From Methanococcoides alaskense (GTDB lineage: Archaea; Halobacteriota; Methanosarcinia; Methanosarcinales; Methanosarcinaceae): DNA of 64,000 nt. The first letter of the stretch is position 1, and every line of letters starts with the position of its first letter. The DNA lies in NCBI RefSeq assembly GCF_027594145.1, contig NZ_JAQFFK010000001.1:186001-250000 (forward strand), written 5' to 3'. This document shows positions 18,412 through 60,331 of this stretch, one piece after another. Position numbers and translations under genes: made by a program. Under the pieces are notes generated by a model. It saw only the letters and a program-made list of their open reading frames with translations, was not told the origin of the DNA and made no database searches.

Positions 18412-18429
18412 TCGATCGAGGTGTATAAT

Positions 18430-33639: not shown

Positions 33640-33697
33640 GAAAAATGAGTTTAGATATTGTTCCTTTTTGCGGGGGTTGCCCAGCCTGGCCAAAGGC
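33640..33697 (+). repeat. tRNA-Leu locus duplication, left copy
   Basis: These 58 bases (30 of flank plus the first 28 of the tRNA) match 60224-60281 at 56 positions, showing that the upstream flank as well as the tRNA was duplicated. Confidence 0.85.
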
Positions 33698-33712
33698 GCA
33701 GGGCTTAGGACC
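33670..33712 (+). pseudogene. 5' half of a split tRNA-Leu (TAG)
   Basis: GCGGGGGTTGCCCAGCCTGG begins a tRNA-Leu that runs through D arm and anticodon loop and breaks off after CTTAGGACC; the next bases (ATATTC) cannot close the anticodon stem. The missing 3' half is at 56672-56713. Joined, the halves give 85 bases with a paired acceptor (GCGGGGG/CTCCCGC), anticodon stem CAGGG/CCCTG and anticodon TAG. The left junction does not rebuild a tRNA, so this gene is inactive as it stands. Confidence 0.85.
33698..33712 (+). repeat. Left attachment core
   Basis: GCAGGGCTTAGGACC, identical to 56657-56671. It covers half of the anticodon stem and the whole anticodon loop, a standard crossover site for archaeal tyrosine integrases. 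Confidence 0.85.
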
Positions 33713-33804: not shown

Positions 33805-33892
33805 GCGAGGGTTGCCCAGCCAGGTCAAAGGCGATGGGCTTAGGACCCATTTTCGTAGGAATTCGTGTGTTCGAATCACACCTCTCGCACCA
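33805..33892 (+). tRNA. tRNA-Leu (TAG), element-borne, with encoded CCA
   Basis: Complete 85-base tRNA-Leu plus CCA. Acceptor GCGAGGG pairs with CTCTCGC, the anticodon stem ATGGG/CCCAT encloses CTTAGGA with anticodon TAG, and the T arm GTGTGTTCGAATCACAC is perfect. It lies 93 bases inside the left end of the element. It differs from the split host gene in acceptor, anticodon-stem and T-arm bases and, unlike the other tRNAs in this window, encodes the terminal CCA, both of which mark it as foreign. It has the same anticodon as the gene the element interrupts. Confidence 0.93.
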
Positions 33893-37018: not shown

Positions 37019-37499
37019 AGTACCCAACTGTTATCTCTTTTCCGTTTTCAGCATCGTCACGTGTTATACGCTTCATATTCATTGTAGCGCTACCATCCCA
37101 AAGTCCTTCAGACAGACGAATTGTTTTTTTGTCGCGCCGATGAAAATGCACTTCTTCATCAAGAGACACTTCCGAAAAAGCCTTTTTATGGGACGAAAAG
37201 CCGAATACAATACCACAATCAGTCCAGCTATTTTGTATCTGAATAAGAAGTGGACGGATGCGCCTGCTCAAAAACTCGTCCGCCTCAATCTGCGACATTG
37301 TTTCTATGACTGTCTCCAGACCGGAGATTAGAATTGTCTTTTTTGGTATCGGTGGTTCTGAGGGGATAGCATTTTTCCAGCTAAGAACCTCGCGAAGGGA
37401 AATCATGGAATCCTCTGCAATGAATTTAGCCATACTCTGCGGATCAAAAACCACACAAGAACCTTTGCGTTGCCAGACTGTGGAAGATATGTTATCCAT
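36999..37499 (-). CDS. Small protein of the defence operon, unknown
   Basis: A 166-residue protein beginning MDNISSTVWQRKG. It has a hydrophobic strand TILISGLETVIETM and a second GIVFGFSS separated by a helix, suggesting an alpha/beta fold, but no intact Walker A motif. AGGTGG precedes the ATG. In BREX type 3 a small protein (BrxF) accompanies the methylase and helicase, and DUF499-DUF1156 loci often hold another small protein; I cannot assign it to either. It lies between the methylase (gap 66 bases) and the helicase (overlap 20 bases). Confidence 0.7.
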   Translation of the reverse strand: MDNISSTVWQRKGSCVVFDPQSMAKFIAEDSMISLREVLSWKNAIPSEPPIPKKTILISGLETVIETMSQIEADEFLSRRIRPLLIQIQNSWTDCGIVFGFSSHKKAFSEVSLDEEVHFHRRDKKTIRLSEGLWDGSATMNMKRITRDDAENGKEITVGYYVARIS

Positions 37500-37565
37500 T
37501 TTGACCACCTACTATATGGCACAAAATAATTCTGGTTTTAGTTTTAATATCATCATTTTCAGCCA

Positions 37566-40500
37566 TTATTCATTCTCCTCCAGATAATCAAACAGGGTTG
37601 GCTGGACATTGACCTGCTTATCTTTGTGGGTGCGCCAGTGCTCGACTAGTTGTAGTGCTGTTTGTGCAGATTTCCGTATCTCCATTGAATCTCCCACCTT
37701 TAGATACCACTTCAGGATATCATCCACTGATTTTTTAATCCGGAAATTGGGATTATTCAGTTCATTCTCAATCTTCACACCTGAATTTTGGAATGCTACA
37801 CCAATCAGGAAATGGGCCTGGTCAAGGTCGGTCTTGATGACTTTTCGGTTGCGACCAGGTCCTGTGAAGTAAGCAAACCTATCGCTAATTGGAACCACAT
37901 GCACTACTTTACCTTCCACACGAATCCAGCCACGAGATTCCAGATCACTCTGACTGGCACCAGTGCCTCGCAGGGTTTTGTGGAGTTCGTCACGGGGAAT
38001 TTCCGTATTATTACGGAAAATGCGCAGGTATAGCCTGCTTGCAGGTTCGGCAATATCTGGCGGATGCTGAGTTCCCGTTTTATCAGTATCCTCAATCAGG
38101 TCATCCAGAAGCTGGTTGATACCAAGCAATGCATCATGCACCTCCAACACCTCCCCCTCACCTGTGAAAACCTTTCCATAATGGCGGCTGTAGAATTCCA
38201 GCGATTTGCCACGCAGAATGACGCGCAGGTCGGATTCAGGCAGTCCCTTGCCATGTGTATGTTCCAGCAATTCCTTGAGTTGCTGGGCCTCGGATTTGAC
38301 CCAGCGGCGCATCTTCGCCCAGCTTATTGGCTCCACATCACCTAGCCTTTTCCGACAGACATGTATAATATCGTATTCAATCTTTTTAGAACCGAAAGCG
38401 GCATTAGTATCATCCCCTTTTGTTTCATCACTAAGAACAGGATATGTAGAAATTAGGACATATCCAGCATCGAAAAGTGCCTTAAGAATGTCAATCCACG
38501 CATTGTCTTCATTGTGATGGAAGGTAAAGGCCATAATGCCGCCGTCTTTGAGCAGTCGGCCTGCTTCTGCCCAGCATGCGCTCAGCGTCTGGCAGTAGAA
38601 ATCCGAGGATGGTTTCGGCCGGTAAAATGGGTTTGGATAATTTTCATTAAATTCTTCGTCACCACTCAAGTCCCGAATCTGCTTAAGATGCTTTGCTTCA
38701 ATGAATATTGATTTTTCGTAATTTTCTCTGTCATCAGGGTGTTGGGCAGGGTCATCAATGGCTTGGAGTGCTTTTGGGGTGAATTCTGGCTTGAAATACT
38801 CTCCCTCTGGTAGCCCTACATACCATTTCTGCAAAGGAATTCGTAGCCAAACATAGAAGAAATCGGCCATATCGGCATAAAATAGGTTGTTACCAAACGG
38901 TGGATCAGTGATAACGAGATCAAAATTTTCATCACCCAAAATAGTTAAATCGGTAGATGAGCCACAATATTGTTCACAACCAGGAACAAGTGGATCACCG
39001 GGGTTACACTTATCTGATTTAACTTTTCCATTGTCTATAACGACGAGTTCCCAAGGATCACTACACCATTCCATTGCCTTCACTACTTTATCTGAAGAAG
39101 ATGCCCAGTTGCCTCGCCCAAGATTAGAAAATACCGAATTTTCGACAACTTGCATCTTAATGTGAAAATTTGGATTAGAAAACATAGGTTCAATCTTGTC
39201 AGCAATTGAATTCCAGAACACGAACATATTTTGATTTCGCAGGTATTGCTGGAATGTACCTAACGCCTGTTCACGCACATCCAGTGGCCAAGATTCTTCT
39301 GGTGCCTCCATGATTGCTTTGAGCAAGTGAGTATGAACCAGAAGCTGTCGAGGGTTGAACATTTTCCACCAATGTGTGTACCCTCTTTTTGTTAGGTTGC
39401 CTTTTTGAACATGAGTTTCCCATGCAAATGGCAGCTCAGAGCGAGGCCAATAATTGTTCAGGTCTTTTTCTCGACGATTTGTCCATTCTGTTTCAGCGGC
39501 ATTGAGACGCCTGATGTCTTCGATGGTAGGTATTTTGAAGTAACGACCGCCATAGTTGAAACCTTCGGCATTGCACTGTGGACAATGACATTGTAATGTG
39601 TAAGGAAATACAGGTGAGTGATGTTGTGCCTCACGCTCAGTCGAAGCAAAATCTGCTGGGCGACCACAATTTCCGCAGGTGAAAGTAGCTTTCTTCGGCA
39701 CAGTTCCCCGTTTCGTATCAATCACTATGCCATCAAGAAGTTCCACCTCATCTGGTAGAGATTCACCTCGTACCTCTATAATAGACAGATTATCCATTCT
39801 TCGCTCGAACCATTGAGCAGAATCAACAGCTGAAGCGCCAGCCCAGCCACCCAATTCTTTATCACCATCAAAGCCAGATGTTCCTTTAATCCACTCAGGA
39901 TGTATGAGCAAAGCCATCTCTACCTTTTTTTTCTGGATTTCAAAATCCTTCTTTTTACGCGCAGATGCCTTAAGATTCGATTTGGCATGTCTTTCGAGAA
40001 TACGGGCCACTCGCTTTCCTGCAAATCCGCCACATGCCGGGCACCGTAGGCCCGGTTCATCATCAACTTGTTCCTTTAGTGCCCACATCCGTTCAATTGT
40101 ATCAGCACTTTTACCTTTGTCGTAATCCTTCAAAATTTGTGCAAAATCCTGAGTCATTTCAGTAAAAGGCATTTCTTCCTTCAGCACCACACGCTCAGAT
40201 TCAGGTGCCATACGGGTCTCACCCAACTCGGCATGGAATGTCTGATTACAATCAGGGCATGTTAGCTCGATATAAGATGTGGACAGTTTTTTTACAGCCA
40301 CCACAGGATTGCGGAAAATCGGTGTGCGATGCCCACAACCCTCTACCTGACATGGACCGTGCTTGGCCCAGAATGTGTAGATTATCTCAGGTCCCTCCCA
40401 GCGGTAACGGCTACGTGTTTCTGGCTCAAGTTCCAGAGGATCGATATCGACAGGTTCACCAGTCTGCACGTCTAGCCAGCGACCTTCATGCCCACGCGGG

Positions 40501-41126
40501 CAAGTGGTGGTATAAAAGGGCTGAATCTGTGGTTTAACCTCGGCTTCAATGTGGTCAAATAGTGCCTGCACCTGTTCGGGATTGCTACACGCAAGTTCAT
40601 TTTTCACAACAAGCCAGGCAACCGGATTGAGATCTATACCAGTCATCTGCATACCAAGGCGGGAACCTTCTACTAGGGTGGTACCGCCTCCCATGAACGG
40701 GTCCAACACTCGCAACTTCTTGAAGGAACCTGCCTTCTGGTGGTTACAATAATAATGCTCCCACACTTTTTTGGCAGCCTCATTTGGGTCGTCTGGCGCT
40801 TCGGTAGCTGCAGCAATCAGCATGGAGCGAAAAACACTTGACCGTCTTCTTGCCCACCATTTCGACATTTGGTATATTGGTTTTCCAGCATTACCTTCCA
40901 GATTGGACAGGGCATTGATGTGAGCTATGGGGAAATCTGCTTCAAGACAAGTCAATTTGCGGTTTGGATTAGAAAAATCTGGTACTGGTAGTCGGATAGC
41001 TTTGCCAAGCTTTTCGGGAAGAAAATCGGCCATCTTGTCAGCCGTTGTCTTGTTTTTTATTTTATTTTTTAGAGCACTGTTAGGCTCCGCTACGTTTCCA
41101 TCTAATTTTGTTTGATTACTATTCAT
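37566..41126 (-). CDS. DUF1156 adenine-specific DNA methyltransferase (PglXI/DrmMI-like)
   Basis: A 1186-residue methylase. The DUF1156 start is at about residues 65-105 (FPIAHINALSNLEGNAGKPIYQMSKWWARRRSSVFRSML). The SAM site LDPFMGGGTTLVEGSRLGMQMTGIDLNP is at 141-168, and the catalytic DPPF motif (ITDPPFGNNLFYADMADFF) near 740. Between them are several zinc-ribbon CxxC pairs (CPACG, CGNCG, CPQCN). COG1743 enzymes of this kind are the modification subunits of BREX type 3 and DISARM-like systems. ATG at 41126 overlaps the PglZ stop (ATGA); the longer in-frame start at 41216 would lie inside pglZ. Expected to mark self DNA. Confidence 0.92.
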   Translation of the reverse strand: MNSNQTKLDGNVAEPNSALKNKIKNKTTADKMADFLPEKLGKAIRLPVPDFSNPNRKLTCLEADFPIAHINALSNLEGNAGKPIYQMSKWWARRRSSVFRSMLIAAATEAPDDPNEAAKKVWEHYYCNHQKAGSFKKLRVLDPFMGGGTTLVEGSRLGMQMTGIDLNPVAWLVVKNELACSNPEQVQALFDHIEAEVKPQIQPFYTTTCPRGHEGRWLDVQTGEPVDIDPLELEPETRSRYRWEGPEIIYTFWAKHGPCQVEGCGHRTPIFRNPVVAVKKLSTSYIELTCPDCNQTFHAELGETRMAPESERVVLKEEMPFTEMTQDFAQILKDYDKGKSADTIERMWALKEQVDDEPGLRCPACGGFAGKRVARILERHAKSNLKASARKKKDFEIQKKKVEMALLIHPEWIKGTSGFDGDKELGGWAGASAVDSAQWFERRMDNLSIIEVRGESLPDEVELLDGIVIDTKRGTVPKKATFTCGNCGRPADFASTEREAQHHSPVFPYTLQCHCPQCNAEGFNYGGRYFKIPTIEDIRRLNAAETEWTNRREKDLNNYWPRSELPFAWETHVQKGNLTKRGYTHWWKMFNPRQLLVHTHLLKAIMEAPEESWPLDVREQALGTFQQYLRNQNMFVFWNSIADKIEPMFSNPNFHIKMQVVENSVFSNLGRGNWASSSDKVVKAMEWCSDPWELVVIDNGKVKSDKCNPGDPLVPGCEQYCGSSTDLTILGDENFDLVITDPPFGNNLFYADMADFFYVWLRIPLQKWYVGLPEGEYFKPEFTPKALQAIDDPAQHPDDRENYEKSIFIEAKHLKQIRDLSGDEEFNENYPNPFYRPKPSSDFYCQTLSACWAEAGRLLKDGGIMAFTFHHNEDNAWIDILKALFDAGYVLISTYPVLSDETKGDDTNAAFGSKKIEYDIIHVCRKRLGDVEPISWAKMRRWVKSEAQQLKELLEHTHGKGLPESDLRVILRGKSLEFYSRHYGKVFTGEGEVLEVHDALLGINQLLDDLIEDTDKTGTQHPPDIAEPASRLYLRIFRNNTEIPRDELHKTLRGTGASQSDLESRGWIRVEGKVVHVVPISDRFAYFTGPGRNRKVIKTDLDQAHFLIGVAFQNSGVKIENELNNPNFRIKKSVDDILKWYLKVGDSMEIRKSAQTALQLVEHWRTHKDKQVNVQPTLFDYLEENE

Positions 41127-42079
41127 AATGATGGCAACTCCATATAAGGCACGGCAACTTCCAGAAGACTCATTCCGCCATGGCTGATTTGCGGAAATCC
41201 ACTCTGGATTTTCCATTTGCGCTGCCCTAAAACAACATGCTGGTTGTTTTCAGTCATGACAATAGGAGGCATGAACTGGTTTTGCCATGGATTGGCTGCG
41301 GCTTTATTTCGGGATGCACCAAAAGTTTTTCTAAGAATCTCTACAGCATGTTTGTCAATTACCTCAGATGAGAATAATTTGCTGACTGCATAACCGTGAT
41401 CAGAGGTTATAACAAGTTTGCGCCCCTGGCGCAATTTGTTTATGAAATTCCAGAAACCATCACCAAGCAGTTCCTTGGAGACTATTTTTTCGATTTCATG
41501 ATTCTTGTTTTGCATGTGAATAAGGTCATCCAACCAGCTGTGCCAGATAAACAGATTTGGGTTTGATGGCACAGCGCAGTCTTCAAAAGGAATGCTGAAA
41601 ACATCGGTGTAAACGCTTTTATCGAAAAGCTTGAAAGTACCGGGTTTTTTATCATTTGCCAGCGTGCTCCGTGAAGACAGATTCAATGCTTTAGCGAATT
41701 GATTAGTGGTAGAAGGACATTCCGAACCAGTAACTTTCACCCCAGAAATTTCAATATTATGCTTTTTGGCTCCGTCAAGGAGTAAAGGAAGCTCCCTAAG
41801 CGACAAAGCATCTAGAATCAATACTGCTTGACCATTGGACGCTGAATCTCCACACCATTCCCCAAGAGCTGCCGAAGTAAGCTTTGCCCGCTTTGGATAG
41901 GCTTCCCAGAGATCCCATGCTGCTTCCGAAAGCAAACGATCTGGAATGACCGTTTGTTCATGTAAAGCAGCAGGAGACCGGATGTTTTGAGCAAGATCCA
42001 ACATAGCATCGAAAATCTTTTCCCATGCATCAGCCTTAGATGGTGTATCAAGAATGATGGAGGGCCAATCTGCACTCAT
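41123..42079 (-). CDS. PglZ-like alkaline-phosphatase-fold protein
   Basis: A 318-residue protein with the PglZ pattern: ILDALSLRELPLL (the metal-binding Asp and following Ser) near residue 88 and LVITSDHGYA (metal-binding DHG) near 226, ending HGGMSLLEVAVPYMEL, also typical of PglZ C-termini. It is much shorter than BREX PglZ proteins (600 residues or more), so only the phosphatase-like core is retained. It overlaps the ATPase stop and the methylase start by four bases each. PglZ is an essential but poorly understood BREX component; it may be a nuclease or structural protein. Confidence 0.85.
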   Translation of the reverse strand: MSADWPSIILDTPSKADAWEKIFDAMLDLAQNIRSPAALHEQTVIPDRLLSEAAWDLWEAYPKRAKLTSAALGEWCGDSASNGQAVLILDALSLRELPLLLDGAKKHNIEISGVKVTGSECPSTTNQFAKALNLSSRSTLANDKKPGTFKLFDKSVYTDVFSIPFEDCAVPSNPNLFIWHSWLDDLIHMQNKNHEIEKIVSKELLGDGFWNFINKLRQGRKLVITSDHGYAVSKLFSSEVIDKHAVEILRKTFGASRNKAAANPWQNQFMPPIVMTENNQHVVLGQRKWKIQSGFPQISHGGMSLLEVAVPYMELPSL

Positions 42080-44862
42080 TGCTCATCTCCTTCCTTGTAA
42101 GTGATTTCCAGCTTAGCTTTGAAAGTGGACGGAATGCGTTGCAAAATCTGTTTGATCTGTTGTGCTGTCATCCCAATGAGCTCTATTTTGGCTGAATCAA
42201 TGGTATGAGTTGAAGCAATGCCCCATTTTTCAAAATTCCCCATAAGATTAATACCAGTTGCCTCTTCGTCAGACTGCTTGGTTCGAGTTATTGCTACTGT
42301 TGTTGCTGGTAGTGTTGGTATTTTTTTGATGTTTACCGAACCATTATTTACTGCATCATCGCCCCCACCAAACGGTGTCACTTCAACAGCTTGACTTCCT
42401 GGAGGATCTATTGAAGTGTTTCCTCCAGTTTGTTCTTTGGGTGCGATTGTGGTACCTCCAATAGCTCCTGGAAGTCCGAGTTCAACTTGCCGCATCTCTT
42501 GACCAGTTCGGAAGGCTTTTTGATTAACATAACGAAGCGCATCACTATCCGATTGGTCTTCAGGACGTCGTCCAATCCAGGTTCCAGCCACATTAAGTAT
42601 AATATCTCCCTGGGCAACAATATCCAAAATGCGTTCATATATCTTTGTCTCTCCGAGGAAGGGGATGGCTTCACCTGTATTGGGAACTGGTGGGTTGGTG
42701 AGATCATCCACCAGTGATCCGACAAAATTGGAGTCCTTTGCTTGTTGAACTACAAATGTCTTAAAATCCTCCGGTTCAAAAAGGTTGGAGAGAATTTTTG
42801 ATTCTACATCACCAGGTATCTCTTCACCTTCTTTATATATTTTTTCGATATGGAATACACAATTTTTAGGATTTTGAAAATCCCACTTATGCAGAATCGC
42901 AAATCGATTAAAACGGTTTTTCAGACTACTTCGCAAAGGATTGTCAAACCCGTGGTGTAAGGCACGGTAGGTTGTGTCCCCACCCCATGCTTCACGGGAA
43001 CAGAGATAACTACAACGTGTCAAATGGATTAATTCCTTGTCATTGTAGAGCCCTTCTGTACCACTTTTCAAAAGTAGAAACCGAACAGTATTGTGGCGAA
43101 TCTGCACATGTTTGACAAGCCAAGTACCAAGACAGGCGTTGATATCTGCATTGCTGTCCCCTATTTTTTCGGGGATAACCAGCAACACTGGTTGATTCCA
43201 TTTGGCAGGCATATCAGCTTCGTTGATAACTTCACTCCAGGGGTCATCTTTCCATTTTGTCCCAAGAACAATCACTCTGGAAGTCTGCTGTTTATTTTCA
43301 GGAACAAATATACTCCGCAAAGTTTTACGGATGTGCTCGATATCTTTTCCCGGATGAACTGTCTGACCAGTGTCAGTGTCTGCACCTACTTGCCACAGTT
43401 TATCATTTTTAGCGAATGCACGTACCTTGGAGCGCGGATTCTCATGGAGGCCGAACCAGAAAGCTCCTCTAGGCTCCTCGCTTGTATGTATGTTTACACT
43501 ATTTTCAACCAAGAGCGTAATCTCTGCCTGAAAAGCATTATCATCTATCACATGTTGACTGGTGATATCAAGATGCAGCTCAGCAGGTGTTCCACCTATG
43601 TTTTTGCCTGGAGACATTGAGCGCATCCAAATTGAGCTGACAAGTTCACGGGCATCGGGAACTTCTACCCCTGCCTCTCTGACGGTTTCCAGATTATGCT
43701 GAGCAATTTCTCTTAGTTTTTCTTGGCCTGCCTGATTGGCAATGGAATCAACAAGTGTCTGAACTTCTTCTGAATCACCATCGACATAGAAATGTGCCGG
43801 GGTAATAATTGGTGTATAATTTCCATGACTTCGATATACATGAGCAAGGATACGAATCATGTCACGTGTTTCTTGGGCTACCTGGGAAAGCAGAATGTGG
43901 TCTTCCAAAAGTTCAATCAGTTCCGGGCTAAAAGGCCAGCATTCAAATACCTCTTGCCGTTTTTGATCCTTTTCAGATTCTGATTTATTGGGATGAAGAA
44001 GACGAAAACGTTCACTTGCATAAACGTTTGCAGTAGCTTGGATGTCGCAATCTGGAATATTCCTTCTGTTCTCGAAGAGGCGATGCAAAAGAAGTCTCTT
44101 ACGGTCTTGTTTTGCTGTATTGCCTCTAAAGTCAATCAGCACAGGACCTTGGCGATGAATCTGTTGGAAAGCCTCATTATTGTTGTTCAGAAGAGAGGTT
44201 ACGAAAATAAGAATCTTTGGACTATCCTTAGCTATTTCTGAAAGATTTTGGACAAAATTAAAAGCCCATTGTCGAAGCATGAATCCTGTTTTCGGATCTA
44301 TCTCAGGCAAACCGGTAATCCAGGTCTGAAATTCATCAAGAATCAAACATGTGGGGCAGTCCTCAAACATTTCTTCGAGCAATGACCGGGGTGGATATGA
44401 TTGTTCCATACCCTCGAACTTCCCTCGGTAGAAGTCTCCCTTAGGGTGGCGATCGAAAAGGAGATTCCACAGTAAAGGATATTCATTATTTTGCACGGGT
44501 TCGGAGATGGGAAAGAATCCTTGAACCATCTTGAAATTTTTCATTTCGCTATCATCGAGTTTTTCTCCCCACTCATATAACCAACTCTCAACAGTACTAG
44601 GAGAGTTGATTGCATGGTGCATAACAGCCATTATATGAGATTTACCACGTCCTCGGTCGCCCATTAAAACGATGGGGCTTCCACTTCGTTTGCTGCCTAT
44701 GGCTTTGAGAGCAGTTTGTATATCTGCTGTAGGGTAAGTAATGGACAGAATATAATTTGCGGATTTTTGTACAGCACCTTGATTGTCGGAAGTGCACAAA
44801 GAAATTGCTGTGCCAGGCATCTGTGCTCCAAGGAATTCATCTCTTAACTTAAGATTAAGCAT
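42076..44862 (-). CDS. DUF499 P-loop ATPase of the defence operon
   Basis: A 928-residue AAA-type ATPase (DUF499, COG1483). Walker A GDRGRGKS lies near residue 68, Walker B CLILDEFQTWI near 180, and a C-terminal region follows with a Ser/Thr-rich linker before EKWGIASTHTID. It plays the part of BrxC/PglY as the large ATPase. ATG at 44862 follows AGGAGATT; two earlier in-frame ATGs lack such a site. First gene of the minus-strand operon. Its promoter must lie in the long gap upstream. Confidence 0.88.
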   Translation of the reverse strand: MLNLKLRDEFLGAQMPGTAISLCTSDNQGAVQKSANYILSITYPTADIQTALKAIGSKRSGSPIVLMGDRGRGKSHIMAVMHHAINSPSTVESWLYEWGEKLDDSEMKNFKMVQGFFPISEPVQNNEYPLLWNLLFDRHPKGDFYRGKFEGMEQSYPPRSLLEEMFEDCPTCLILDEFQTWITGLPEIDPKTGFMLRQWAFNFVQNLSEIAKDSPKILIFVTSLLNNNNEAFQQIHRQGPVLIDFRGNTAKQDRKRLLLHRLFENRRNIPDCDIQATANVYASERFRLLHPNKSESEKDQKRQEVFECWPFSPELIELLEDHILLSQVAQETRDMIRILAHVYRSHGNYTPIITPAHFYVDGDSEEVQTLVDSIANQAGQEKLREIAQHNLETVREAGVEVPDARELVSSIWMRSMSPGKNIGGTPAELHLDITSQHVIDDNAFQAEITLLVENSVNIHTSEEPRGAFWFGLHENPRSKVRAFAKNDKLWQVGADTDTGQTVHPGKDIEHIRKTLRSIFVPENKQQTSRVIVLGTKWKDDPWSEVINEADMPAKWNQPVLLVIPEKIGDSNADINACLGTWLVKHVQIRHNTVRFLLLKSGTEGLYNDKELIHLTRCSYLCSREAWGGDTTYRALHHGFDNPLRSSLKNRFNRFAILHKWDFQNPKNCVFHIEKIYKEGEEIPGDVESKILSNLFEPEDFKTFVVQQAKDSNFVGSLVDDLTNPPVPNTGEAIPFLGETKIYERILDIVAQGDIILNVAGTWIGRRPEDQSDSDALRYVNQKAFRTGQEMRQVELGLPGAIGGTTIAPKEQTGGNTSIDPPGSQAVEVTPFGGGDDAVNNGSVNIKKIPTLPATTVAITRTKQSDEEATGINLMGNFEKWGIASTHTIDSAKIELIGMTAQQIKQILQRIPSTFKAKLEITYKEGDEQ

Positions 44863-44901
44863 GGTAATCTCCTGTTGATTCATATTTATATGTATATTCA
44901 A

Positions 44902-47563: not shown

Positions 47564-48202
47564 TTAATGTTCTTCCTTTTTCCACTCTCCATTTTCGTAT
47601 ACATACCCATAATTTATCAATCTATTTGTAATAGTTGATGCAGTGACCCCAAAATATTTCCCACATGCATTTGCTGATAAACCTTTTTCGATAAGCTCTT
47701 CGAGTTTCTTACTAGGAATTTCTTTCTTTGGTCTGTGACAAATAACCCCTCTTTGTTCCGCAGCTCTTCGCCCAGCTGTCATTCTTTCATTAATGATGGA
47801 TCTTTCAAATTCCGCAAATGAAGCCATTATCTGTAATGTCAACTTTCCCATTGCAGAAGATGTATCAATTGGCTGGCTTGTTGCTGCAAAGGATACACAA
47901 TATGACTCAAGCTTTTCAACACTGACGAGACAATCGATTATGGACCTAGCAAATCGGTCAATCTTTGTTACAAGCAGAATTTGGAATTTGCCATCCTCTG
48001 CATCTTGCATTATATTCTGAAAGGCAGGTCTCTCAGTGTCTTTACCTGAAAATCCAAAATCGATATATTCCTCATGAACAACCCAACCTTTTGAGTGACA
48101 ATAATTTCGGAGTTCTTGTCTTTGCAAATGTATCGAATCCTGTTGATTGTCTGTTGAAGTTCGAATGTAAAGCCCAGCTTTTTTTATAGTATTATTTTTC
48201 AT
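47564..48202 (-). CDS. Serine recombinase/resolvase
   Basis: A 212-residue small serine recombinase. Catalytic Ser in YIRTSTDNQQ (residue 16), then the IDFGFSGKDTERPAFQNI and LLVTKIDRFARS motifs, the E helix GKLTLQIMASFAEFERSIINERMTAGR, and a C-terminal helix-turn-helix (SANACGKYFGVTASTITNRL). It may resolve plasmid multimers or move the element; it is separate from the tyrosine integrase at the right end. Confidence 0.93.
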   Translation of the reverse strand: MKNNTIKKAGLYIRTSTDNQQDSIHLQRQELRNYCHSKGWVVHEEYIDFGFSGKDTERPAFQNIMQDAEDGKFQILLVTKIDRFARSIIDCLVSVEKLESYCVSFAATSQPIDTSSAMGKLTLQIMASFAEFERSIINERMTAGRRAAEQRGVICHRPKKEIPSKKLEELIEKGLSANACGKYFGVTASTITNRLINYGYVYENGEWKKEEH

Positions 48203-48508: not shown

Positions 48509-49294
48509 ATGGACTCATACGATGAAACAGTTAAAACTGCTGGTGAAGTTGCTAAATTGGCTACAAAATCGCTTGATGTCGTTGGTCAATTTGGTGGTTT
48601 TCTCTCGAAGATTTTTGGAACTCCTGCCAAAGATGCCTATGGTATTGTAGGAGATCAAATTGATTTCATCCAATGGGAAAGACGCACTAGGATGGTGGAA
48701 ATAGTAAATCAGTATCATGAAAAAAAAGGCTTTCCTCCAGTAAGACCGATTTCTCCTAAATTTGCAATTCCCATGATTATGAATGCAGGTCTGGAAGAGG
48801 ATGATGATTTGCAGGATATTTGGTGTAGACTTATTGCGAATAGTATGGATGCAAATTTTGATTTTGAAATCAGATATGCTTTCATTGAAATGATAAAAAG
48901 TCTTTCATCTTTAGATGCTCAAATTTTGAGTCTTGTTTATCGCGGTGCATCAAAGTATTCCTCTATACCATCAAGGAATTTTGCTGAAGATGATGATGTT
49001 TTTGACAATGAAACTGATTATGTTGTTCGTAAAGAACGTATGCAATCTTATTTCATGAGCAAAGTAGTTATTAAACATAAATTGGGCTGCACAGGCGAAT
49101 TATTAGATGTTTCTATTCATAATTTGCTTAGAGTCCAATGCTTAAATGATTCTTCCTTAGAAGATGCACTTTCTGCTTTCGAGACTATTGATGATTTTGA
49201 TGATTTTGGTGACCTTAATCTTATGGTTCCGAGGGGGTATTATAGTCTTACCCCTTTAGGAATAGTATTTGTTGAAGCGTGCATAATTATGTGA
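48509..49294 (+). CDS. Abi-alpha-like (DUF4393) protein
   Basis: A 261-residue protein matching the Abi_alpha pattern: an amphipathic N-terminal region (AKLATKSLDVVGQFGGFLSKIFG), then GDQIDFIQWERRTRMVEIVNQY, then PISPKFAIPMIMNAGLEEDDDLQDIWCRLIANSMD, which is the family hallmark. Members occur in abortive-infection loci. It lies in the element between the recombinase and the replication module. It is probably a second, stand-alone defence gene; its mechanism is not known to me. Confidence 0.75.
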   Translation: MDSYDETVKTAGEVAKLATKSLDVVGQFGGFLSKIFGTPAKDAYGIVGDQIDFIQWERRTRMVEIVNQYHEKKGFPPVRPISPKFAIPMIMNAGLEEDDDLQDIWCRLIANSMDANFDFEIRYAFIEMIKSLSSLDAQILSLVYRGASKYSSIPSRNFAEDDDVFDNETDYVVRKERMQSYFMSKVVIKHKLGCTGELLDVSIHNLLRVQCLNDSSLEDALSAFETIDDFDDFGDLNLMVPRGYYSLTPLGIVFVEACIIM

Positions 49295-50969: not shown

Positions 50970-51312
50970 TATACCACTAATGATTGCAACAAGAATAAAT
51001 CATTTTCAAAATTATACCACTTTTTCTGGAAATATACCACTGTTTTGAAATCAAAAAATGAAATAACGATGTTTAATTATCCCACTAATACCACTTATAC
51101 CACTAAAAAGATAATAAAATATAAAAAAAGGTTAATTTTAGTTTTTGCAATCGATGAAAAATATTTGTTTCTTATTTTCGGTGGTATAGGTGGTATAAGT
51201 GGTATTAATGTATTTCATCTACAATTTCTGGTCAGATTAAAGTGGGATTAATAAAATAGAAAAGTGGTATAGTCATTTATGTGTATAATTTTTGATGTGT
51301 AAAAGTGGTATA
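50970..51312. other. Mirror-symmetric iteron array, candidate replication origin
   Basis: Twelve copies of the 9-mer TATACCACT. Left of centre all six are in plus orientation: 50970, 51013, 51033, then three head-to-tail at 51078 (TATCCCACT), 51087 (AATACCACT) and 51096. Right of centre six inverted copies: three head-to-tail at 51180 and 51189 (both GGTGGTATA) and 51198 (AGTGGTATT), then 51241 (AGTGGGATT), 51263 and 51304. Distances from the centre (51142) match in pairs to within two bases: about 168/166, 125/125 and 105/103, with the triplets also balanced. The middle 75 bases are almost pure A+T, suited to unwinding. The DUF927 helicase gene ends 72 bases away. Confidence 0.75.
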
Positions 51313-51383: not shown

Positions 51384-53258
51384 TCAATCTTCTTTTGGTA
51401 CTTTTATTGTGGGCCACGTTGGTTCCATACTTTTCAAACCTAATATCTCATGTACTTTTTTAAGGTTCAAGCGTGAAACATCTTGTTGTGTTCCATCATA
51501 CTTCACTTTAGTTGAAAATCTCCTTGTAACACTACCATCTTTTTTGTTTTCCTTACGATGAACTAAGATACCTTCATCAGCCCATTCTTTTTGTACAGTT
51601 GTACTATTATAACCAGATTCTCTGATTGCTCTCCTCAATTCTAAAGGAATTAGATCAATATATTCATCAGAGATCCATCCGGAGTGTAGCTGTTTTTGAC
51701 CTAAGCTTAAGTCTGGACGATTAGATCGACTATCTACAAAATTTTTAATATTGACTTGTATCCAGTCGTAGACACTTTGTAATGCTCTGTGTGAATACGA
51801 CTCAATAGGCGCATTTTCAACAATTTCTTCGAAGTATTTATTTGTTATAGCAAATGGATCGACAGTTTCAACTCCAATTTCTTCAAATATTTCTTCAATT
51901 AAGACACCTGCTGTCGTAATAGCTGCGAAAGTGTTAGAAAGTCTATCACCGACACTTGTATTCGTTTTGGTGAATTGGTTCTTTAAATCTGAAAATGTTT
52001 CGTCCCTTATGTTGTCCTTGTAATCGAAAATCTTTTTTATGAATGGTTCTACAAGATGCCCATAATTATCCTGCATAGTACGCTTTGCTAATTCTACCTC
52101 GTCTGGCAGATATCTCATATCACAATGCAGTTCGATTACTCTAACCAACTGACCTGTAAAACCATCGTTATCAGTGATGGCTTTTTCACCTGTCGTTAGA
52201 ACAACTGAATTCCAAGAACCACCTATAAGCAGGCCACCTTCTTTCTTTCCCCTTAACTTGCCCTTTCCGTTTGATATCATGTAAATAAGAGCTGTGAGCA
52301 TATCCTGATTTTTTTGCACGCTTGTTTCATCTAGATAAAAAGGTAAGTCGCAGAACAATTCTGCCATCTTTTCTGCACCCACTACTGTTGTATCAGCACT
52401 CCATTTCAAATCTTTTGGATTTCCAATAGCGCTAAACGCTACACTGGAGGTGGTTGTTTTACCTGTTGATGATTCGCCACTGTCATCTACAAAAAAGGAA
52501 TCGACGCCGACCAAATTAAGAATCATTGCAGACATGGCTGCATATATTTTAAATCGGACGATTGGTTCACTTAAAATTCCGTTCATACCTTTGATCCAGT
52601 TCTCAAAGGTCCCTTTTTTTGTCAAACCTTTTAAGGCAGCTCCTTCAACCATTTCTACAAGGTGTGTGGAATCCTTTGTGTATGCCCTATCACCGAATAC
52701 AAAACATTCATCAATAATTTTGGTTTTAGGCTTCCATCCATTTTTTTGAGCAACTATTATTTTGTCCAATTCATCATAGTTGAACTTCAAGCACTCAGCG
52801 AGATATTCATTTAAATCAGGAATAAACTTCAGAGTTATTATGAATCCTTTGTTAATCAACTCTTTTATACCATCATTACTAAGAGCCTTGACTTGTGGCA
52901 TACGTAATATCTTACATTCGTCGCGTAGTCTCTCAGCAAAGGTAATTTCAAGCCATTTATTTCCATCATCTATATTCATACCCATTCCTGTGATTGTGCA
53001 TGGAGAATGTGAAATTCTTGATGTGAAGTTTCCTGATTTTTTATTGTATTTTATTTTAAATAGACCTGTTTCTTTGCCTTCGAAATCCGTTGTTAAATAA
53101 TCAGAAGGGAGTAACTTGCCTGCATATATCTGAGATTTTGGAGAGTAATCCAGATGAGTGAGAGCATTTTCATCAGTGCTTTCAACTATGATGTCTACCT
53201 CAAATGATTTTCCTTCTTCCTTTGTAGTTTCAGTTTTGGAAACATGTCCATCATTCAT
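51384..53258 (-). CDS. DUF927 helicase-like replication protein
   Basis: A 624-residue protein of the DUF927 family, P-loop NTPases found as replicative helicase or primase-helicase parts of plasmids and viruses. Walker A region DSGESSTGKTTTS near residue 268, a conserved SFVAFSAIGNP-like segment after it, and LPFYLDETSVQKNQD as Walker B/sensor region. The C-terminal part (about 520-600) looks like a winged helix (VQKEWADEGILVHRKENKKDGS). It is last in a minus-strand run with two or more small genes, overlapping the 47-residue gene by four bases, and ends beside the iteron array, the usual layout of a Rep gene and its origin. Confidence 0.88.
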   Translation of the reverse strand: MNDGHVSKTETTKEEGKSFEVDIIVESTDENALTHLDYSPKSQIYAGKLLPSDYLTTDFEGKETGLFKIKYNKKSGNFTSRISHSPCTITGMGMNIDDGNKWLEITFAERLRDECKILRMPQVKALSNDGIKELINKGFIITLKFIPDLNEYLAECLKFNYDELDKIIVAQKNGWKPKTKIIDECFVFGDRAYTKDSTHLVEMVEGAALKGLTKKGTFENWIKGMNGILSEPIVRFKIYAAMSAMILNLVGVDSFFVDDSGESSTGKTTTSSVAFSAIGNPKDLKWSADTTVVGAEKMAELFCDLPFYLDETSVQKNQDMLTALIYMISNGKGKLRGKKEGGLLIGGSWNSVVLTTGEKAITDNDGFTGQLVRVIELHCDMRYLPDEVELAKRTMQDNYGHLVEPFIKKIFDYKDNIRDETFSDLKNQFTKTNTSVGDRLSNTFAAITTAGVLIEEIFEEIGVETVDPFAITNKYFEEIVENAPIESYSHRALQSVYDWIQVNIKNFVDSRSNRPDLSLGQKQLHSGWISDEYIDLIPLELRRAIRESGYNSTTVQKEWADEGILVHRKENKKDGSVTRRFSTKVKYDGTQQDVSRLNLKKVHEILGLKSMEPTWPTIKVPKED

Positions 53259-55468: not shown

Positions 55469-56599
55469 TTATTTCATATTTTGCAGCATTTCATTAATTC
55501 GTGATTCAACTAGTTCATTAACCTGTGCTTCAACAAATTTAGACAACTTATTATCAGTCAGTTTAAATTCGGAATCCAGTTTTATTGCAGTATCCATATC
55601 TAATACCATTGAACAACTACTACAATATTTTGCATCATGTGGGTTTTTCGTCTTACATCGAGGACATTTAATTGGTTTAAGCACTTCCTTCTTCTTTTCC
55701 ACATCATCCTCAATAATCCCATTTATTGCCAATAATTTATTCTCAACATCATCACCTGACAAGTGAATATAAACTGCAGGCATTTTAGAATCGGCTTCCC
55801 ATCCTGCAAAAATTCTCAACTCCATCTCTTTAAACCCTTGTTTCACCAATTCAGTTAATCTTCCATGTCTCAGAGCATGAGGATGAACATTCTTTTTTAG
55901 ACCTGCATTCTCCGCATTTGTTTTAAGCATATTTTGAACTGTGCGTATATCTAAACTTTTAGGTTCAGCCCCATAATTGCGACTTGTGACAAATAAAGGT
56001 GCATCAGGGTTATCACGGAATGGATGCTGATTGATCCATGCTTGTAAATCAGGCACCGAATCAATAAGCCTCAATTTTCTCATCCCAGTTTTGCCATTAA
56101 CGATTATAGAACAGCCATGTCTGTCAAATTGAACGTTTTTTATATTTAAACTAAGAATCTCATTAGCACGAGCTGCACTATCCCACAGCATCATAACTAT
56201 TGCACGATCGCGTTGTGTTTTGCAGGTTTCGACCAGTTTTTTAACATCTTCCTGCACAATAAGTTCATCCACAGGTAGATTGTTTTTAGGAGATCTTGTT
56301 TTAATTCCATCAAAAAAATCATTGTCAGGAGAGAACCACTTAAAAAAAAGCCTTAGGTCAACGACATCATTATGGACAGTCTTAGGTTTATTATTTTGGC
56401 GACGGTATAGGATATAATCTTCAATGTCAGATTTTGTAATTTTGTCTAAATTTTTTCCTTCATGGAATTTTAAAAACGTATAAACTTTCCAAAGTTTAGT
56501 ATTAATAGTACTATCTTTAAAATTGTTGAGCTTAAGGTGCCTTTTATATGATTTAAACGTTTCAGCATTATTTCCTGTAAAATCGGGTGCATATTTCAT
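55469..56599 (-). CDS. Tyrosine integrase with C-terminal zinc ribbon
   Basis: A 376-residue tyrosine recombinase. SAM-like DNA-binding domain at residues 1-90, catalytic domain with Arg in SAARANEIL (144), Lys in GKTGMRKL (170), HPHALRHGRLT (His-x-x-Arg, 241-244), Trp in GWEADS (267) and nucleophile Tyr in AVYIHLS (277). After the catalytic domain comes a zinc ribbon CPRC...CSSC (about 308-327) and a helical tail. ATG at 56599 is preferred to an earlier ATG at 56638 in a poor context. It lies 58 bases from the right attachment core and is intact (not split by integration), so the element could still excise. Confidence 0.93.
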   Translation of the reverse strand: MKYAPDFTGNNAETFKSYKRHLKLNNFKDSTINTKLWKVYTFLKFHEGKNLDKITKSDIEDYILYRRQNNKPKTVHNDVVDLRLFFKWFSPDNDFFDGIKTRSPKNNLPVDELIVQEDVKKLVETCKTQRDRAIVMMLWDSAARANEILSLNIKNVQFDRHGCSIIVNGKTGMRKLRLIDSVPDLQAWINQHPFRDNPDAPLFVTSRNYGAEPKSLDIRTVQNMLKTNAENAGLKKNVHPHALRHGRLTELVKQGFKEMELRIFAGWEADSKMPAVYIHLSGDDVENKLLAINGIIEDDVEKKKEVLKPIKCPRCKTKNPHDAKYCSSCSMVLDMDTAIKLDSEFKLTDNKLSKFVEAQVNELVESRINEMLQNMK

Positions 56600-56656
56600 A
56601 CATTTAATATGTATTAAATACATATATATATTTTGCAATATTACGTGACCCTCTAA

Positions 56657-56671
56657 GCAGGGCTTAGGACC
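56657..56671 (+). repeat. Right attachment core
   Basis: GCAGGGCTTAGGACC, identical to 33698-33712. Confidence 0.85.
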
Positions 56672-56713
56672 CTGTCTCGTAGGAGTTCGTGCGTTCGAAT
56701 CGCACCTCCCGCA
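56657..56713 (+). pseudogene. 3' half of the split tRNA-Leu (TAG)
   Basis: Core GCAGGGCTTAGGACC is followed by the rest of a tRNA-Leu: CTGTCTCGTAGGAG, T arm GTGCGTTCGAATCGCAC and acceptor CTCCCGC plus A. It lacks acceptor 5' strand and D arm, which are at 33670. It has no promoter of its own. Confidence 0.85.
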
Positions 56714-57050
56714 CTATTTTGTTTTAGATGTTTGTAGCAAGATCACATCTGAATATGTATATTACATTCAATATGGCTATTAGAATTAAAGCTATTATTA
56801 TGAGCTCAAATCCTCCTGATAGCTCGGACATGAGCGACACTGGCAGGAATAGCAGTAGATTCACTACTGACTTTTGTAGTGTATTGGTACCTATCAAAGA
56901 AAGGTAAGATCATTCACAAGTATAAATTAGCTGCCTCAATGGATGTGAATTGATCTATAGTGGAAATATGGATCAACACACAAATGTATTTATGTAACAA
57001 TTGTGTATGATGATTATACATGACCAATTAGCTAGATGGAGGAATCAATA
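56714..57050. other. Intergenic region with a possible small membrane ORF
   Basis: About 340 bases. On the minus strand 56724-56864 (GTG start) or 56724-56831 (ATG start) encodes MSELSGGFELIIIALILIAILNVIYIF and a short tail, a plausible small membrane protein, but without a clear ribosome site. GGAGG at 57039-57043 near the right edge belongs to the antitoxin. Confidence 0.3.
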
Positions 57051-57284
57051 ATGCGACTGTCGATCAATAAAAGGAACCGCAGAACACGGGAAGTTGATAA
57101 TATCGTGAAAGTCGCGAGGGCAGCATCCTCTAGTGCGAAACAAAATGCATTTAGTCATGGGATATCAGTAGCAAGACAACAGGGTGAAAACATTGTTATG
57201 TTGCATCCAGATGGAAGTACTGATGTCATTAAGAGAATTGAAAATAGTCCTGTAACACTAAACAAAAAACGATACTACATATGA
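57051..57284 (+). CDS. Probable antitoxin of a zeta-like pair
   Basis: A 77-residue basic protein beginning MRLSINKRNRRTREVDN with a helical middle and GENIVMLHPDGSTDVIKRIE near the end. GGAGG at 57039-57043 precedes the ATG; a start at 57036 would lie over that site. Its stop overlaps the start of the zeta-like toxin (ATGA), the usual layout of a toxin-antitoxin pair. Assignment rests on this place. Confidence 0.6.
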   Translation: MRLSINKRNRRTREVDNIVKVARAASSSAKQNAFSHGISVARQQGENIVMLHPDGSTDVIKRIENSPVTLNKKRYYI

Positions 57285-58003
57285 AGCAACGTATGAGGGT
57301 ATTTGCAGGACCAAATTGATCTGGTAAAACTGCAATTGTTAGTGAATTTATTGAAAAAAGGGATGAACTGATCGATCCTAATCGGCATGTTAATCCGGAT
57401 GAACTTAATTTATTGGATGTTCTCAATTTTGATAGCTTTGGAGTAAAAGTTGACGAGGGCGATTTTCGAGATTTTGTACTCCAGTATCATTTTTATGAAA
57501 AACTTGGCATTACCATTCAAGATCTTAAAATTAAAGACAACTGTTTTTACATAAATAAAAAAAGTTCATATATGGGTGCAATGTTATCGGATTATCTTAG
57601 ACAGTGCCTCATAAAAACAAACGAACGTTTATTTTCGTTTGAAACAGTTTTATCACACCCATCAAAAATAGATTTTCTCAAGGATGCAAAAAAACTCGGT
57701 TGGGATGTCTATTTGTATTATGTAAGTACAAACGACCTTGAAATTAATTGTGTTCGTGTGGCACAACGAGTGCAAATGGGTGGTCACGATGTTCCTCGTG
57801 AAAAGATATATGATCGGTACACAAAGGCCAACAATAATTTATTTGAGGTTTTAAAGCACTGTCGTAGGGCATATATTTTCGACAATTCTGAAGAAATGGA
57901 ATTAATAGCTAAAAAAAATCCTGATGGTTCATTGGATCTATTGGTGGATTATCTTACTCCAAGTTGGTTTAATGAGTGTGTTCTCTCCAAATTAATTGAG
58001 TGA
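57281..58003 (+). pseudogene. Zeta-like P-loop kinase toxin with UGA in the Walker A motif
   Basis: From ATG 57281 one frame runs 241 codons and reads MRVFAGPN, stop, SGKTAIVSEFIE. The stop is TGA at 57317-57319 where Gly is expected in GPNGSGKT; one base change (GGA to TGA) explains it. The rest is intact: DPNRHVNPDELN, FSFETVLSHPSKIDFL (substrate-binding Glu/Thr region), the lid VAQRVQMGGHDVPREKI, and a C-terminal helix. Re-initiation at 57413 would lose the P-loop. It is therefore a disarmed toxin with its antitoxin kept. Family is zeta/PezT-like ATPase. Confidence 0.85.
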
Positions 58004-58042
58004 TGGTTATGTCGATATTTGAATTCAATTGAAACAAAACTG

Positions 58043-58059
58043 AGGATTTCTACAAAGCC
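58043..58059. repeat. Solo inverted-repeat end
   Basis: AGGATTTCTACAAAGCC, matching the ends of the MITE-like repeat at 47421-47484 (16 of 17 with the right end). No transposase is adjacent. It marks an insertion sequence scar at the junction with the RuBisCO remnant. Confidence 0.5.
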
Positions 58060-58097
58060 GATATTAGATTCTTAAATTTCTGAATAAAAAAGGTTTG

Positions 58098-58129
58098 ATC
58101 TCTACACATTCAGATATCCGTGTAGAGAT
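58098..58129 (-). terminator. Copy of the RuBisCO terminator
   Basis: ATCTCTACA and TGTAGAGAT (58098-58106, 58121-58129) form the same nine-base stem as at 60426-60457. It serves no intact gene here. Confidence 0.6.
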
Positions 58130-58142
58130 CATTTTTGTACAA

Positions 58143-58310
58143 TTATCTATCAAATATAACGATTGCTTCTGCCAGTTCTTATGGTCCTGACATATTCCTC
58201 AATGTCCATTCCCTGAAGATATACATCACATGTCTGGACAAGTGCCTTTGCACCGGACTGTGTGCCTCCGAGTTGGAAATGTACGCCTGAACCTATGGTC
58301 GTGATGAATA
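58143..58310 (-). pseudogene. RuBisCO 3'-end remnant
   Basis: The minus strand reads FITTIGSGVHFQLGGTQSGAKALVQTCD, VYLQGMDIEEYV, then a shifted tail, closely matching the last ~55 codons of the intact RuBisCO at 60471. Changes include HSHPGG to HFQLGG in the phosphate-binding loop and a frameshift near the end. With the terminator copy it shows that about 225 bases (58085-58310) are duplicated from 60410-60640. Confidence 0.85.
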
Positions 58311-58343
58311 CAAAAAAAATTAGAAAGATTGTTTATCAATCAA

Positions 58344-60011
58344 TCAATCCTTCCTTCTGTAAATAATATACACTGACAGCAACATACCGATTGCTGGAAG
58401 CATGCTGAATCCTGGAGTTGTTTCACTTTCTTCTTGTAGTTCAGGGGTTTCTTCAACAATTTCTTCTTCGGATGATTCCTCTTCAGAAACTACTACGACT
58501 GCATTATCGGTAGCATTTGAACTGGAAGTGTTATTTGCTTCCTCCTCTTCAGTTTCTTCTTGAATTGGCATGATTACCGCACTGCCAGTACCACTACCTC
58601 CAGAAGAGCTGCCACCGGTGTCAACATTATTGACAGTGATGTTAATTGTCTCTGAATCGGTTAGGATACTATCGTAAACTGTAAAATTAACCGAATAAGC
58701 TCCAGCTTGGGATTCGGAAGGTGTCCACGAAAATACACCTGTACTGTCATTCAATGTAGCACCTGTTGGGAGATTGGTGCCGGAGTAGACAAGGGTGTCG
58801 TTTTCAGGGTCTATGGCAATGACCGTGAAGGTTAGTGGGGCATTCTCATTAACACTTTTATCACCGATTGGGGACAGCACAGGAGGCTGGTTTTCTTTTA
58901 CTTTAACAAGCCACATGTCATTATTTGCGCCATTCTCTGTGGAACCTGCTACAATGTAGCCGTCTAAGGTTTGCTGGACAGAATATGCATAATCATGATT
59001 ACCGCCGTCAAAGGTAACATTCCAGTCCTCGGAACCTGTAGAATTGGTCTTAATAAGCCACATGTCTCGATTATCTTCATTCTCTGTGTAACCGGCTACA
59101 ATATACCCTTCATCGGATGTTTGCTGGACAGGATATGCCCCATCATCTTCAACGCTGCCGTCAAAGGTAACGTTCCAGTCCTCGGAACCTGTGGAGTCGG
59201 TCTTAATAAGCCACATGTCCCGATCTGCGATATTATCTGCGTAACCGGCTATAATATATCCTGTGTCGTTGGTCTGCTGGACAGAATATGCATGATCATT
59301 ATAACCGCCATTAAAGGTAACATTCCATTCCTCGGAACCTGTGTCGTCGGTCTTAATAAGCCATACGTCATAATCTACACTATTATTTGTGGATCCGGTC
59401 ACAATATACCCGTCGGATGTCTGCTGGACAGATCTTGAATAATCATCATTACCGCCGTCAAAGGTAACATTCCATTCCTCGGAACCTGTGGAGTCGGTCT
59501 TAACAAGCCATATGTCCCAATCTGCACTACTATTTGTGTAACCGGTCAAAATATACCCGTCGTCAGATGTCTGGTTGACCGAAGTTACATAATCAGAAGA
59601 ACCGCTGTCAAAGGTAACGTTCCAGTCCTCGGAACCTGTGGAGTCGGTTTTAAGAAGCCACATGTCCCGATCATCGCCAGTCTCCGTGGTACCGGCTACA
59701 ATATATCCGTCGGATGTCTGCTGTACAGAATATATAATATCATCATCACTAACGTTGCAGGTATAGGTAACATTCCATTCCTCGGAACCTGTGTCGTCGG
59801 TCTTAAGCAGCCACATGTCATTATTTGCGCTATTATTTGTGTAACCGGCTACAATATACCCATCGTCGGATGTCTGCTGGACAGAAGTTGCCACATCATC
59901 ATAACCGCCGTCAAAAGTAACATTCCAGTCTTCAACAACTCCTACGGCAGCTGAAGCCCCTGTGGTAACTAAAGTTAAAAGTATTACAAAAATTATTACA
60001 TATAATCTCAT
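58344..60011 (-). CDS. Surface beta-propeller-like repeat protein with PGF-CTERM-like tail
   Basis: A 555-residue secreted protein. Signal peptide (residues 1-22, ends GASAA), then seven repeats of about 50 residues with the pattern GSEEWNVTFDGG--DYAYSVQQTSDGYIVAG-T---A--DMWLIKTD, expected to form a seven-bladed propeller. An Ig-like domain follows (LSPIGDKSVNENAPLTFTV, about residues 375-465), then a Ser/Thr/Glu-rich stalk and the C-terminal sorting tail TPGFSMLPAIGMLLSVYIIYRRKD, which resembles PGF-CTERM signals cut by archaeosortase. It lies between the two copies of the tRNA-Leu/RuBisCO segment and so was probably brought in with them. Confidence 0.88.
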   Translation of the reverse strand: MRLYVIIFVILLTLVTTGASAAVGVVEDWNVTFDGGYDDVATSVQQTSDDGYIVAGYTNNSANNDMWLLKTDDTGSEEWNVTYTCNVSDDDIIYSVQQTSDGYIVAGTTETGDDRDMWLLKTDSTGSEDWNVTFDSGSSDYVTSVNQTSDDGYILTGYTNSSADWDIWLVKTDSTGSEEWNVTFDGGNDDYSRSVQQTSDGYIVTGSTNNSVDYDVWLIKTDDTGSEEWNVTFNGGYNDHAYSVQQTNDTGYIIAGYADNIADRDMWLIKTDSTGSEDWNVTFDGSVEDDGAYPVQQTSDEGYIVAGYTENEDNRDMWLIKTNSTGSEDWNVTFDGGNHDYAYSVQQTLDGYIVAGSTENGANNDMWLVKVKENQPPVLSPIGDKSVNENAPLTFTVIAIDPENDTLVYSGTNLPTGATLNDSTGVFSWTPSESQAGAYSVNFTVYDSILTDSETINITVNNVDTGGSSSGGSGTGSAVIMPIQEETEEEEANNTSSSNATDNAVVVVSEEESSEEEIVEETPELQEESETTPGFSMLPAIGMLLSVYIIYRRKD

Positions 60012-60223
60012 TTGAACAATACCCCCATTAATATATTATTATGTTTGATTATTTAAGTATTGGTGTAGTAATATCATCTATATTGGAGATTATCAATTAG
60101 CTTTTCGCTTTAAAAGCGTAAATCTTTTTTCAAGACTACTGGCACCACTCTGAGCATAGCTTATGCATTGCATATATATGGTAGAAAATGTGCAAGTCCA
60201 TGGAATATACTTACACAGAATAC

Positions 60224-60281
60224 GAAAAATGAGTTTAGAGATTGTTCCTTTTTGCGGAGGTTGCCCAGCCTGGCCAAAGGC
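60224..60281 (+). repeat. tRNA-Leu locus duplication, right copy
   Basis: Matches 33640-33697 at 56 of 58 positions, covering the upstream flank and the first 28 bases of the tRNA. Confidence 0.85.
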
Positions 60282-60331
60282 TCAGGACCCTGTCTCGTAG
60301 GAGTTCGTGCGTTCGAATCGCACCTCCCGCA
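60254..60331 (+). pseudogene. tRNA-Leu pseudogene with anticodon deletion
   Basis: GCGGAGGTTGCCCAGCC begins a 78-base sequence that ends with an intact T arm and acceptor (CTCCCGC plus A). Relative to the 85-base joined gene it lacks seven bases (GCAGGGC) and has one T-to-C change, so AAAGGC runs directly into TCAGGACCCTG. The 5' strand of the anticodon stem and part of the loop are gone and no anticodon can be formed. The lesion falls exactly on the attachment core of the element. Confidence 0.8.

Follow-up and report, generated by a model that had tools for sequence, protein, structure and literature searches.

An array of short repeats lies beside a DUF927 helicase gene in the 64,000-nucleotide stretch of Methanococcoides alaskense DNA analyzed here (the window), which raises the question of whether it is a replication origin and, if so, of which kind. 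The first-pass annotation had described twelve 9-mers, six per inward-facing arm, around a 75-bp A+T-rich core, and our analysis reproduced that description; as detailed below, we arrived at the same function and at a different view of its novelty.

Layout of the iteron array

Positions 50970-51312 (343 bp) hold twelve TATACCACT-type 9-mers, six of them exact, five with one mismatch and one with two. The six plus-strand units start at 50970, 51013, 51033, 51078, 51087 and 51096, and the six minus-strand units at 51180, 51189, 51198, 51241, 51263 and 51304, so that both arms point inward at the core. The parts of the array are the following.

50970-50978, plus strand: left-arm iteron TATACCACT, midpoint 166-168 bp from the array center
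51013-51021, plus strand: left-arm iteron TATACCACT, about 125 bp from the center
51033-51041, plus strand: left-arm iteron TATACCACT, about 103-105 bp from the center
51078-51104, plus strand: inner left triplet of contiguous 9-mers, TATCCCACT AATACCACT TATACCACT
51105-51179, no strand: 75-bp core, 84% A+T, probable melting site
51180-51206, minus strand: inner right triplet, TATACCACC, TATACCACC and AATACCACT as read on the minus strand
51241-51249, minus strand: degenerate right-arm iteron AATCCCACT (two mismatches), about 105 bp from the center
51263-51271, minus strand: right-arm iteron TATACCACT, about 125 bp from the center
51304-51312, minus strand: right-arm iteron TATACCACT, about 168 bp from the center

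The distances from unit midpoints to the array center (left/right arm) were 42/42, 51/51, 60/60, 103/105, 125/125 and 166/168 bp, and the matching of the arms proposed earlier thus holds for all six pairs within 2 bp. When positions were randomized with the tight triplets held intact, six of six mirrored pairs at this tolerance were obtained in 2 of 5,000 trials; at a tolerance of 1 bp the mirror spacing was not significant (537 of 3,000 randomizations). The spacers between units showed no reverse complementarity between arms above chance, which argues against a recent inverted duplication as the source of the arms and for a symmetry of site placement rather than of a duplicated arm.

Copies with at most one mismatch numbered 11 in 352 bp, against 0.07 expected from their density elsewhere in the window. 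Moreover, the exact word TATACCACT occurs 17 times in the 1.97-Mb genome, six of them in the array and the remainder scattered, so that the density elsewhere by which the annotation would have been refuted is not seen. Of all 75-bp windows taken between 45.0 and 56.6 kb, only 0.6% reached the A+T content of the core, and an Rfam scan yielded no RNA family. The array starts 71 bp beyond the stop codon of the DUF927 gene, on its 3' side, bearing out the adjacency that had been noted.

The helicase and the element that carries it

The neighboring gene and its proposed DNA-reading part are as follows.

51384-53258, minus strand: 624-aa Cch/SaPI-Rep-type helicase-initiator (DUF927, PF06048, plus HTH_56, PF18662), assigned by Pfam, PDB sequence and predicted fold
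51519-51794, minus strand: C-terminal HTH_56 'Cch helix turn helix domain', residues 489-580, proposed iteron reader

In Pfam the 624-aa protein matched DUF927 with an E value of 1.8e-52 and HTH_56 with 4.7e-8 (33.5 bits, the cut-off being 26.2), and its nearest PDB sequences were 8tch (SaPIbov1 Rep, E 6e-22) and 5dgk (SCCmec Cch, E 1.1e-16). The predicted model had a mean pLDDT of 67 and a pTM of 0.64, with a C-terminal region of low to moderate confidence in which a winged-helix-like order was seen at low confidence; when this model was used in Foldseek, 8tch and 5dgk were again on top (E about 1e-25; TM, normalized to target length, 0.72-0.74). In sequence and predicted fold alike, then, the protein beside the array is a SaPI Rep/Cch-type helicase. 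The literature relates Cch (DUF927) to SaPIbov1 Rep; SaPIbov1 Rep and SCCmec Cch are both self-loading helicases, and the iterons recognized by SaPI Rep are located just 3' of the rep gene.

The array and the helicase gene are part of an integrated element, whose landmarks are these.

33698-33712, plus strand: attL core GCAGGGCTTAGGACC (15 bp), end of the 5' half of the host tRNA-Leu (33670-33712)
33805-33892, plus strand: intact tRNA-Leu(TAG) on the element, beside attL
55469-56638, minus strand: tyrosine integrase of the element, 389 aa, adjoining attR
56657-56671, plus strand: attR core GCAGGGCTTAGGACC, start of the 3' half of the host tRNA-Leu (56657-56713)

In three genomes of the same genus (G001, G003 and G006) the site is empty, the tRNA-Leu being uninterrupted and the left flank running into the 3' half. 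The two tRNA-Leu(TAG) halves together with these empty sites define an element of about 22.9 kb with the origin candidate and the helicase inside it; a repeat at 47468/58043, considered as an alternative att pair, was dropped in favor of the tRNA-Leu sites with their empty-site evidence. The host tRNA-Leu(TAG) is split inside the anticodon region, and the intact copy on the element presumably replaces the lost function.

Other contents of the element and its flanks were also recorded. The 34232-44901 stretch encodes an SNF2 helicase (HmaA/BrxHI-like) and a large DUF1156 methyltransferase (HmaB/PglX-like), together with a weak PglZ match and a sub-cutoff DUF499 match; judged by these similarities the cargo resembles a defense cluster, and the scans made found no match there to one complete known defense system. 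An Abi_alpha-family protein (PADLOC candidate PDC-S47, 48509-49294) adjoins a serine resolvase gene (47564-48202) in the element. Beyond attR a second, degenerate tRNA-Leu copy is located at 60254-60331, and the 57000-58308 segment is common to G005 and G008, in which it is followed by host DNA that corresponds to the window from 60398 on; 56714-60250 and the degenerate tRNA-Leu appear to be a tandem insertion, or an older one, at the tRNA-Leu site. Other genes of the window encode an archaeal aIF2-gamma, a RuBisCO-family protein and a dimethylamine methyltransferase, the frame of which (18421-19497) stops at about profile position 355 of 466, fitting a candidate in-frame amber codon for pyrrolysine. 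By its gene content the host is a methylotrophic methanogen, probably one of the Methanosarcinaceae.

Arrays and mirror geometry at related loci

Relatives of the locus were drawn from 22 of the 112 genomes of the host's family, from phage and plasmid records and from viral and genome contigs, giving 110 loci that were reduced to 48 non-redundant clusters from Methanosarcinaceae-type archaea, phages, plasmids and SaPIs. Protein scans of genome and viral contig collections with the window helicase, a Streptomyces helicase or an archaeal relative returned no relatives, and class- and phylum-level searches added one further locus only (L058). Arrays were detected with a composition-corrected repeat score, run with controls at a threshold of at least 7; a mirror-guided finder had been dropped because it chose chance motifs in weak loci. 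Among 49 regions tested 3' of the DUF927 gene (the 48 cluster representatives plus L044), 34 (about 70%) reached the threshold, the window scoring 17.4 and the highest region 29; of the upstream tiles 2 of 48 did so, and of 21 tiles taken elsewhere in the window none did (highest score 5.8). A minority of relatives, L036, L038 and L042 among them, had no convincing array.

The iteron word differs lineage by lineage across these loci. Archaeal words include TATACCACT in the window, TGGATTAGC, CGCCGGACT, TGTCGTACC, GGTAAGGTT and others, and those of phages, plasmids and SaPI-type elements include GTTTCACCTA, GGTAACCGAG, CTGTCACAAC, GGGGAACT and AGTTCCCG. Two loci deserve separate mention: L040 has its only strong array (AATTATGG) on the 5' side of the DUF927 gene, where it accounts for one of the two upstream hits and may be a displaced origin, and the archaeal L048 has two different inverted arrays, GGTAAGGTT at 5648-5955 and AGTGGAAAA at 6233-6485, about 300 bp apart, which may be two separate origins or one origin accompanied by a control site.

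We then compared arrangements, setting the center of each array by its innermost opposed pair and taking as partners units of the same orientation at a distance within 3 bp. The outer units were pooled, since small arrays give the per-locus null little power and many loci are individually non-significant: 24 of 49 chances were mirrored, whereas 2,000 trials of random rotation averaged 4.5 and never exceeded 14. Representative geometries are given as bp from the center, with i for inward and o for outward units.

Window: i42 i51 i60 i103/105 i125 i166/168
Archaeal L044: i54 i64 i72 o104/106 i128
Archaeal L049: i64 i73 o106 i127
SaPI-type L132: i45 i54 o98 i121
SaPI-type L133: i50 i59 o103-104 i125-126 i136 (5/5 units mirrored)
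Phage L062: i53 i62 o110
Geobacillus plasmid L066: i58 i122 i134 i155

A partly common layout is seen, with inner inward tandems at about 40-70 bp, a unit at about 95-118 bp that is usually outward and inward units at about 120-140 bp. In the pooled bacterial loci inward units fall at 40-70 and 110-140 bp and are nearly absent from the interval between, while outward units fall at 90-120 bp; archaeal loci follow the same pattern of distances with more scatter, and the archaeal arrays L032, L046 and L048 are only partly symmetric. The unit at about 104 bp is inward in the window, whereas at the other loci it is usually outward. Thus, of the conservation expected in related elements, the mirror spacing was retained while the iteron word was not. 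Unrelated words combined with conserved mirror distances suggest that geometry, not sequence, is kept by selection, and the DUF927 initiators of bacteria and archaea may well share a position code instead of a sequence code, in which set mirrored distances and orientations, written in each lineage's own words, would let two helicase rings assemble facing each other on the two sides of a melting core.

As to the protein that binds the array, the first-pass annotation had offered both the 624- and the 317-residue proteins. Among the tested proteins of the window element, DUF927 recurred at 24 and the integrase at 10 of the 25 archaeal loci retrieved (the former as expected, given that these loci were gathered by DUF927 homology), and of 24 archaeal DUF927 loci only 2 had a homologue of the 317-aa protein nearby, making it an unlikely binder. 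No tested protein of the element other than DUF927 tracks the arrays, and the helicase is therefore the natural binder. Its C terminus diverges much more than its core among close relatives (window versus L033: core 47%, C terminus 25%), as expected of a domain that tracks changing iterons, although the association of iteron word with C-terminal domain was not significant once core similarity was removed (partial Mantel p = 0.15). The iterons are most likely read by the C-terminal winged-helix/HTH_56 domain. Moreover, primase-related domains are fused to DUF927 in archaeal relatives, DnaG-like in L046 and of the NrS-1-polymerase type in L041 and L049, which supports a role in replication.

Function of the array and its relation to known origins

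Taken as a site, the array is almost certainly where replication of the element starts. In the fuller reading, which we hold to be very probable, it is the origin of the element of about 22.9 kb, bound by the element's own 624-aa helicase in two assemblies that would melt the core and leave in opposite directions. Helicase subunits would assemble on each arm by way of their C-terminal domains, the inward-facing arms setting the two assemblies in opposite orientation at matching distances on either side of the core; melting of the 75-bp A+T-rich core would be driven by ATP, after which two rings, presumably loaded as a double hexamer, would each take a single strand and depart in opposite directions, host primase and polymerase coming after them. 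Replication would thereby start bidirectionally at the array.

The direction of replication in this scheme cannot be read from static sequence: a unidirectional origin, or a melting site for one helicase with the second arm only architectural, would be compatible with the origin claim, and we consider it rather unlikely, as both arms keep full sets of sites at matching distances across lineages, a feature that fits two equivalent assemblies. A regulatory reading would instead make the array an operator bound by the 317-aa protein or another regulator of the element, governing how the replication or 317-aa genes are transcribed. Its position in an intergenic region about 590 bp upstream of the 317-aa start, and the fact that inverted repeats are targets of many regulators, would suit such a role; yet the scarcity of 317-aa homologues noted above, the presence of arrays 3' of the helicase gene also at phage, plasmid and SaPI loci, the placement of this one 3' of the helicase gene and not at its promoter, and the unusual 343-bp symmetric layout of 12 sites with an A+T-rich core make it very improbable. 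Sigma-70-type promoter matches likewise showed no excess over background, in a scan whose reach does not extend to archaeal promoters.

It could also be asked whether the array is a decayed, non-functional relic, given the single mismatches in most inner units (four or five of the six), the two in one outer unit, and the integrated state of the element; the helicase and integrase reading frames are intact, however, and the mirror spacing is held to within 2 bp, so that we regard decay as highly improbable. Iteron clusters of plasmids also act as centromeres, and a partition site was weighed on that ground; it is extremely improbable, the arrays tracking the helicase gene and occurring in phages and SaPIs, with no ParA/ParM-like gene among the Pfam-scanned proteins of the element.

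The preferred reading, an origin served by a symmetric assembly, is strongly supported by the similarity of the helicase to SaPI Rep/Cch in sequence and predicted fold and by the mirror arrays 3' of archaeal and bacterial homologues. The 'new type' of origin once suggested is instead of the known SaPI/Cch kind, the layout of which is described in PMC7581432 and PMC6092414 and in the SaPI-type loci measured here. According to PMC6092414, an A+T-rich region flanked by two iteron sets is present in every PICI origin. The window shares with the SaPI/PICI rep-ori module of the SaPIbov1 Rep type a DUF927 Rep helicase with an origin immediately 3' of its gene, short iterons in two sets, one on each side of an A+T-rich region, and mirror distances, measured in the SaPI-type loci L065, L132 and L133. 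It differs in being located on an archaeal chromosome, in its iteron word TATACCACT, in the inward orientation of the unit at about 104 bp (outward in SaPI-type loci) and in an inner arm of three contiguous 9-mers in place of two.

Sequence-level traits of a SaPI/Cch-type replicon are found here, among them a DUF927 AAA+ helicase, a C-terminal HTH domain and an iteron array directly downstream. As in a PICI, the element has an integrase and a specific att site (15-bp core in tRNA-Leu, three empty sites), and no PICI packaging, capsid-remodeling or terS genes were detected among its Pfam-scanned proteins, small ORFs being without assignment. SCCmec Cch (5dgk) has the same DUF927-type helicase, HTH_56 being named by Pfam after Cch, and is with 8tch the best structural match to the 624-aa model; the comparison with Cch covered the protein, and the element is otherwise unrelated.

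Archaeal chromosomal origins (ORB/mini-ORB, Orc1/Cdc6) also place inverted initiator sites on both sides of an A+T-rich unwinding element, but the initiator of the window comes from a different family and is itself the helicase; no Orc1/Cdc6 family match was found among the Pfam-scanned proteins of the element. Bacterial iteron plasmids (RepA/RepE/TrfA) typically have one-directional tandem arrays, and their initiators recruit host DnaB. Like them, the window has an A+T-rich region adjoined by short repeated initiator sites, but with opposed arms and a DUF927 initiator where a classical iteron plasmid has one-directional direct repeats and a Rep_3/RepA-type initiator.

The SaPI/Cch rep-ori layout was already known, and so was a Cch homologue in the thaumarchaeal integrated element NitAR2-E2 (PMC6563490), in the text of which we found no description of an origin or iteron array. 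According to the literature found, what is new is the archaeal occurrence of this origin, its presence outside islands, in phages and plasmids, and the quantified mirror geometry with a changing word. With this finding, methanogenic archaea join the known hosts of the SaPI/PICI-type replicon. The loading of two rings by a self-loading helicase becomes directly testable on a small DNA, the origins of unannotated DUF927 elements can be sought by a practical rule, and methanogen genetic tools gain a candidate replicon. If the position code is true, one origin design would be used across both prokaryotic domains, beyond PICIs, and would serve as a template for finding origins from sequence.
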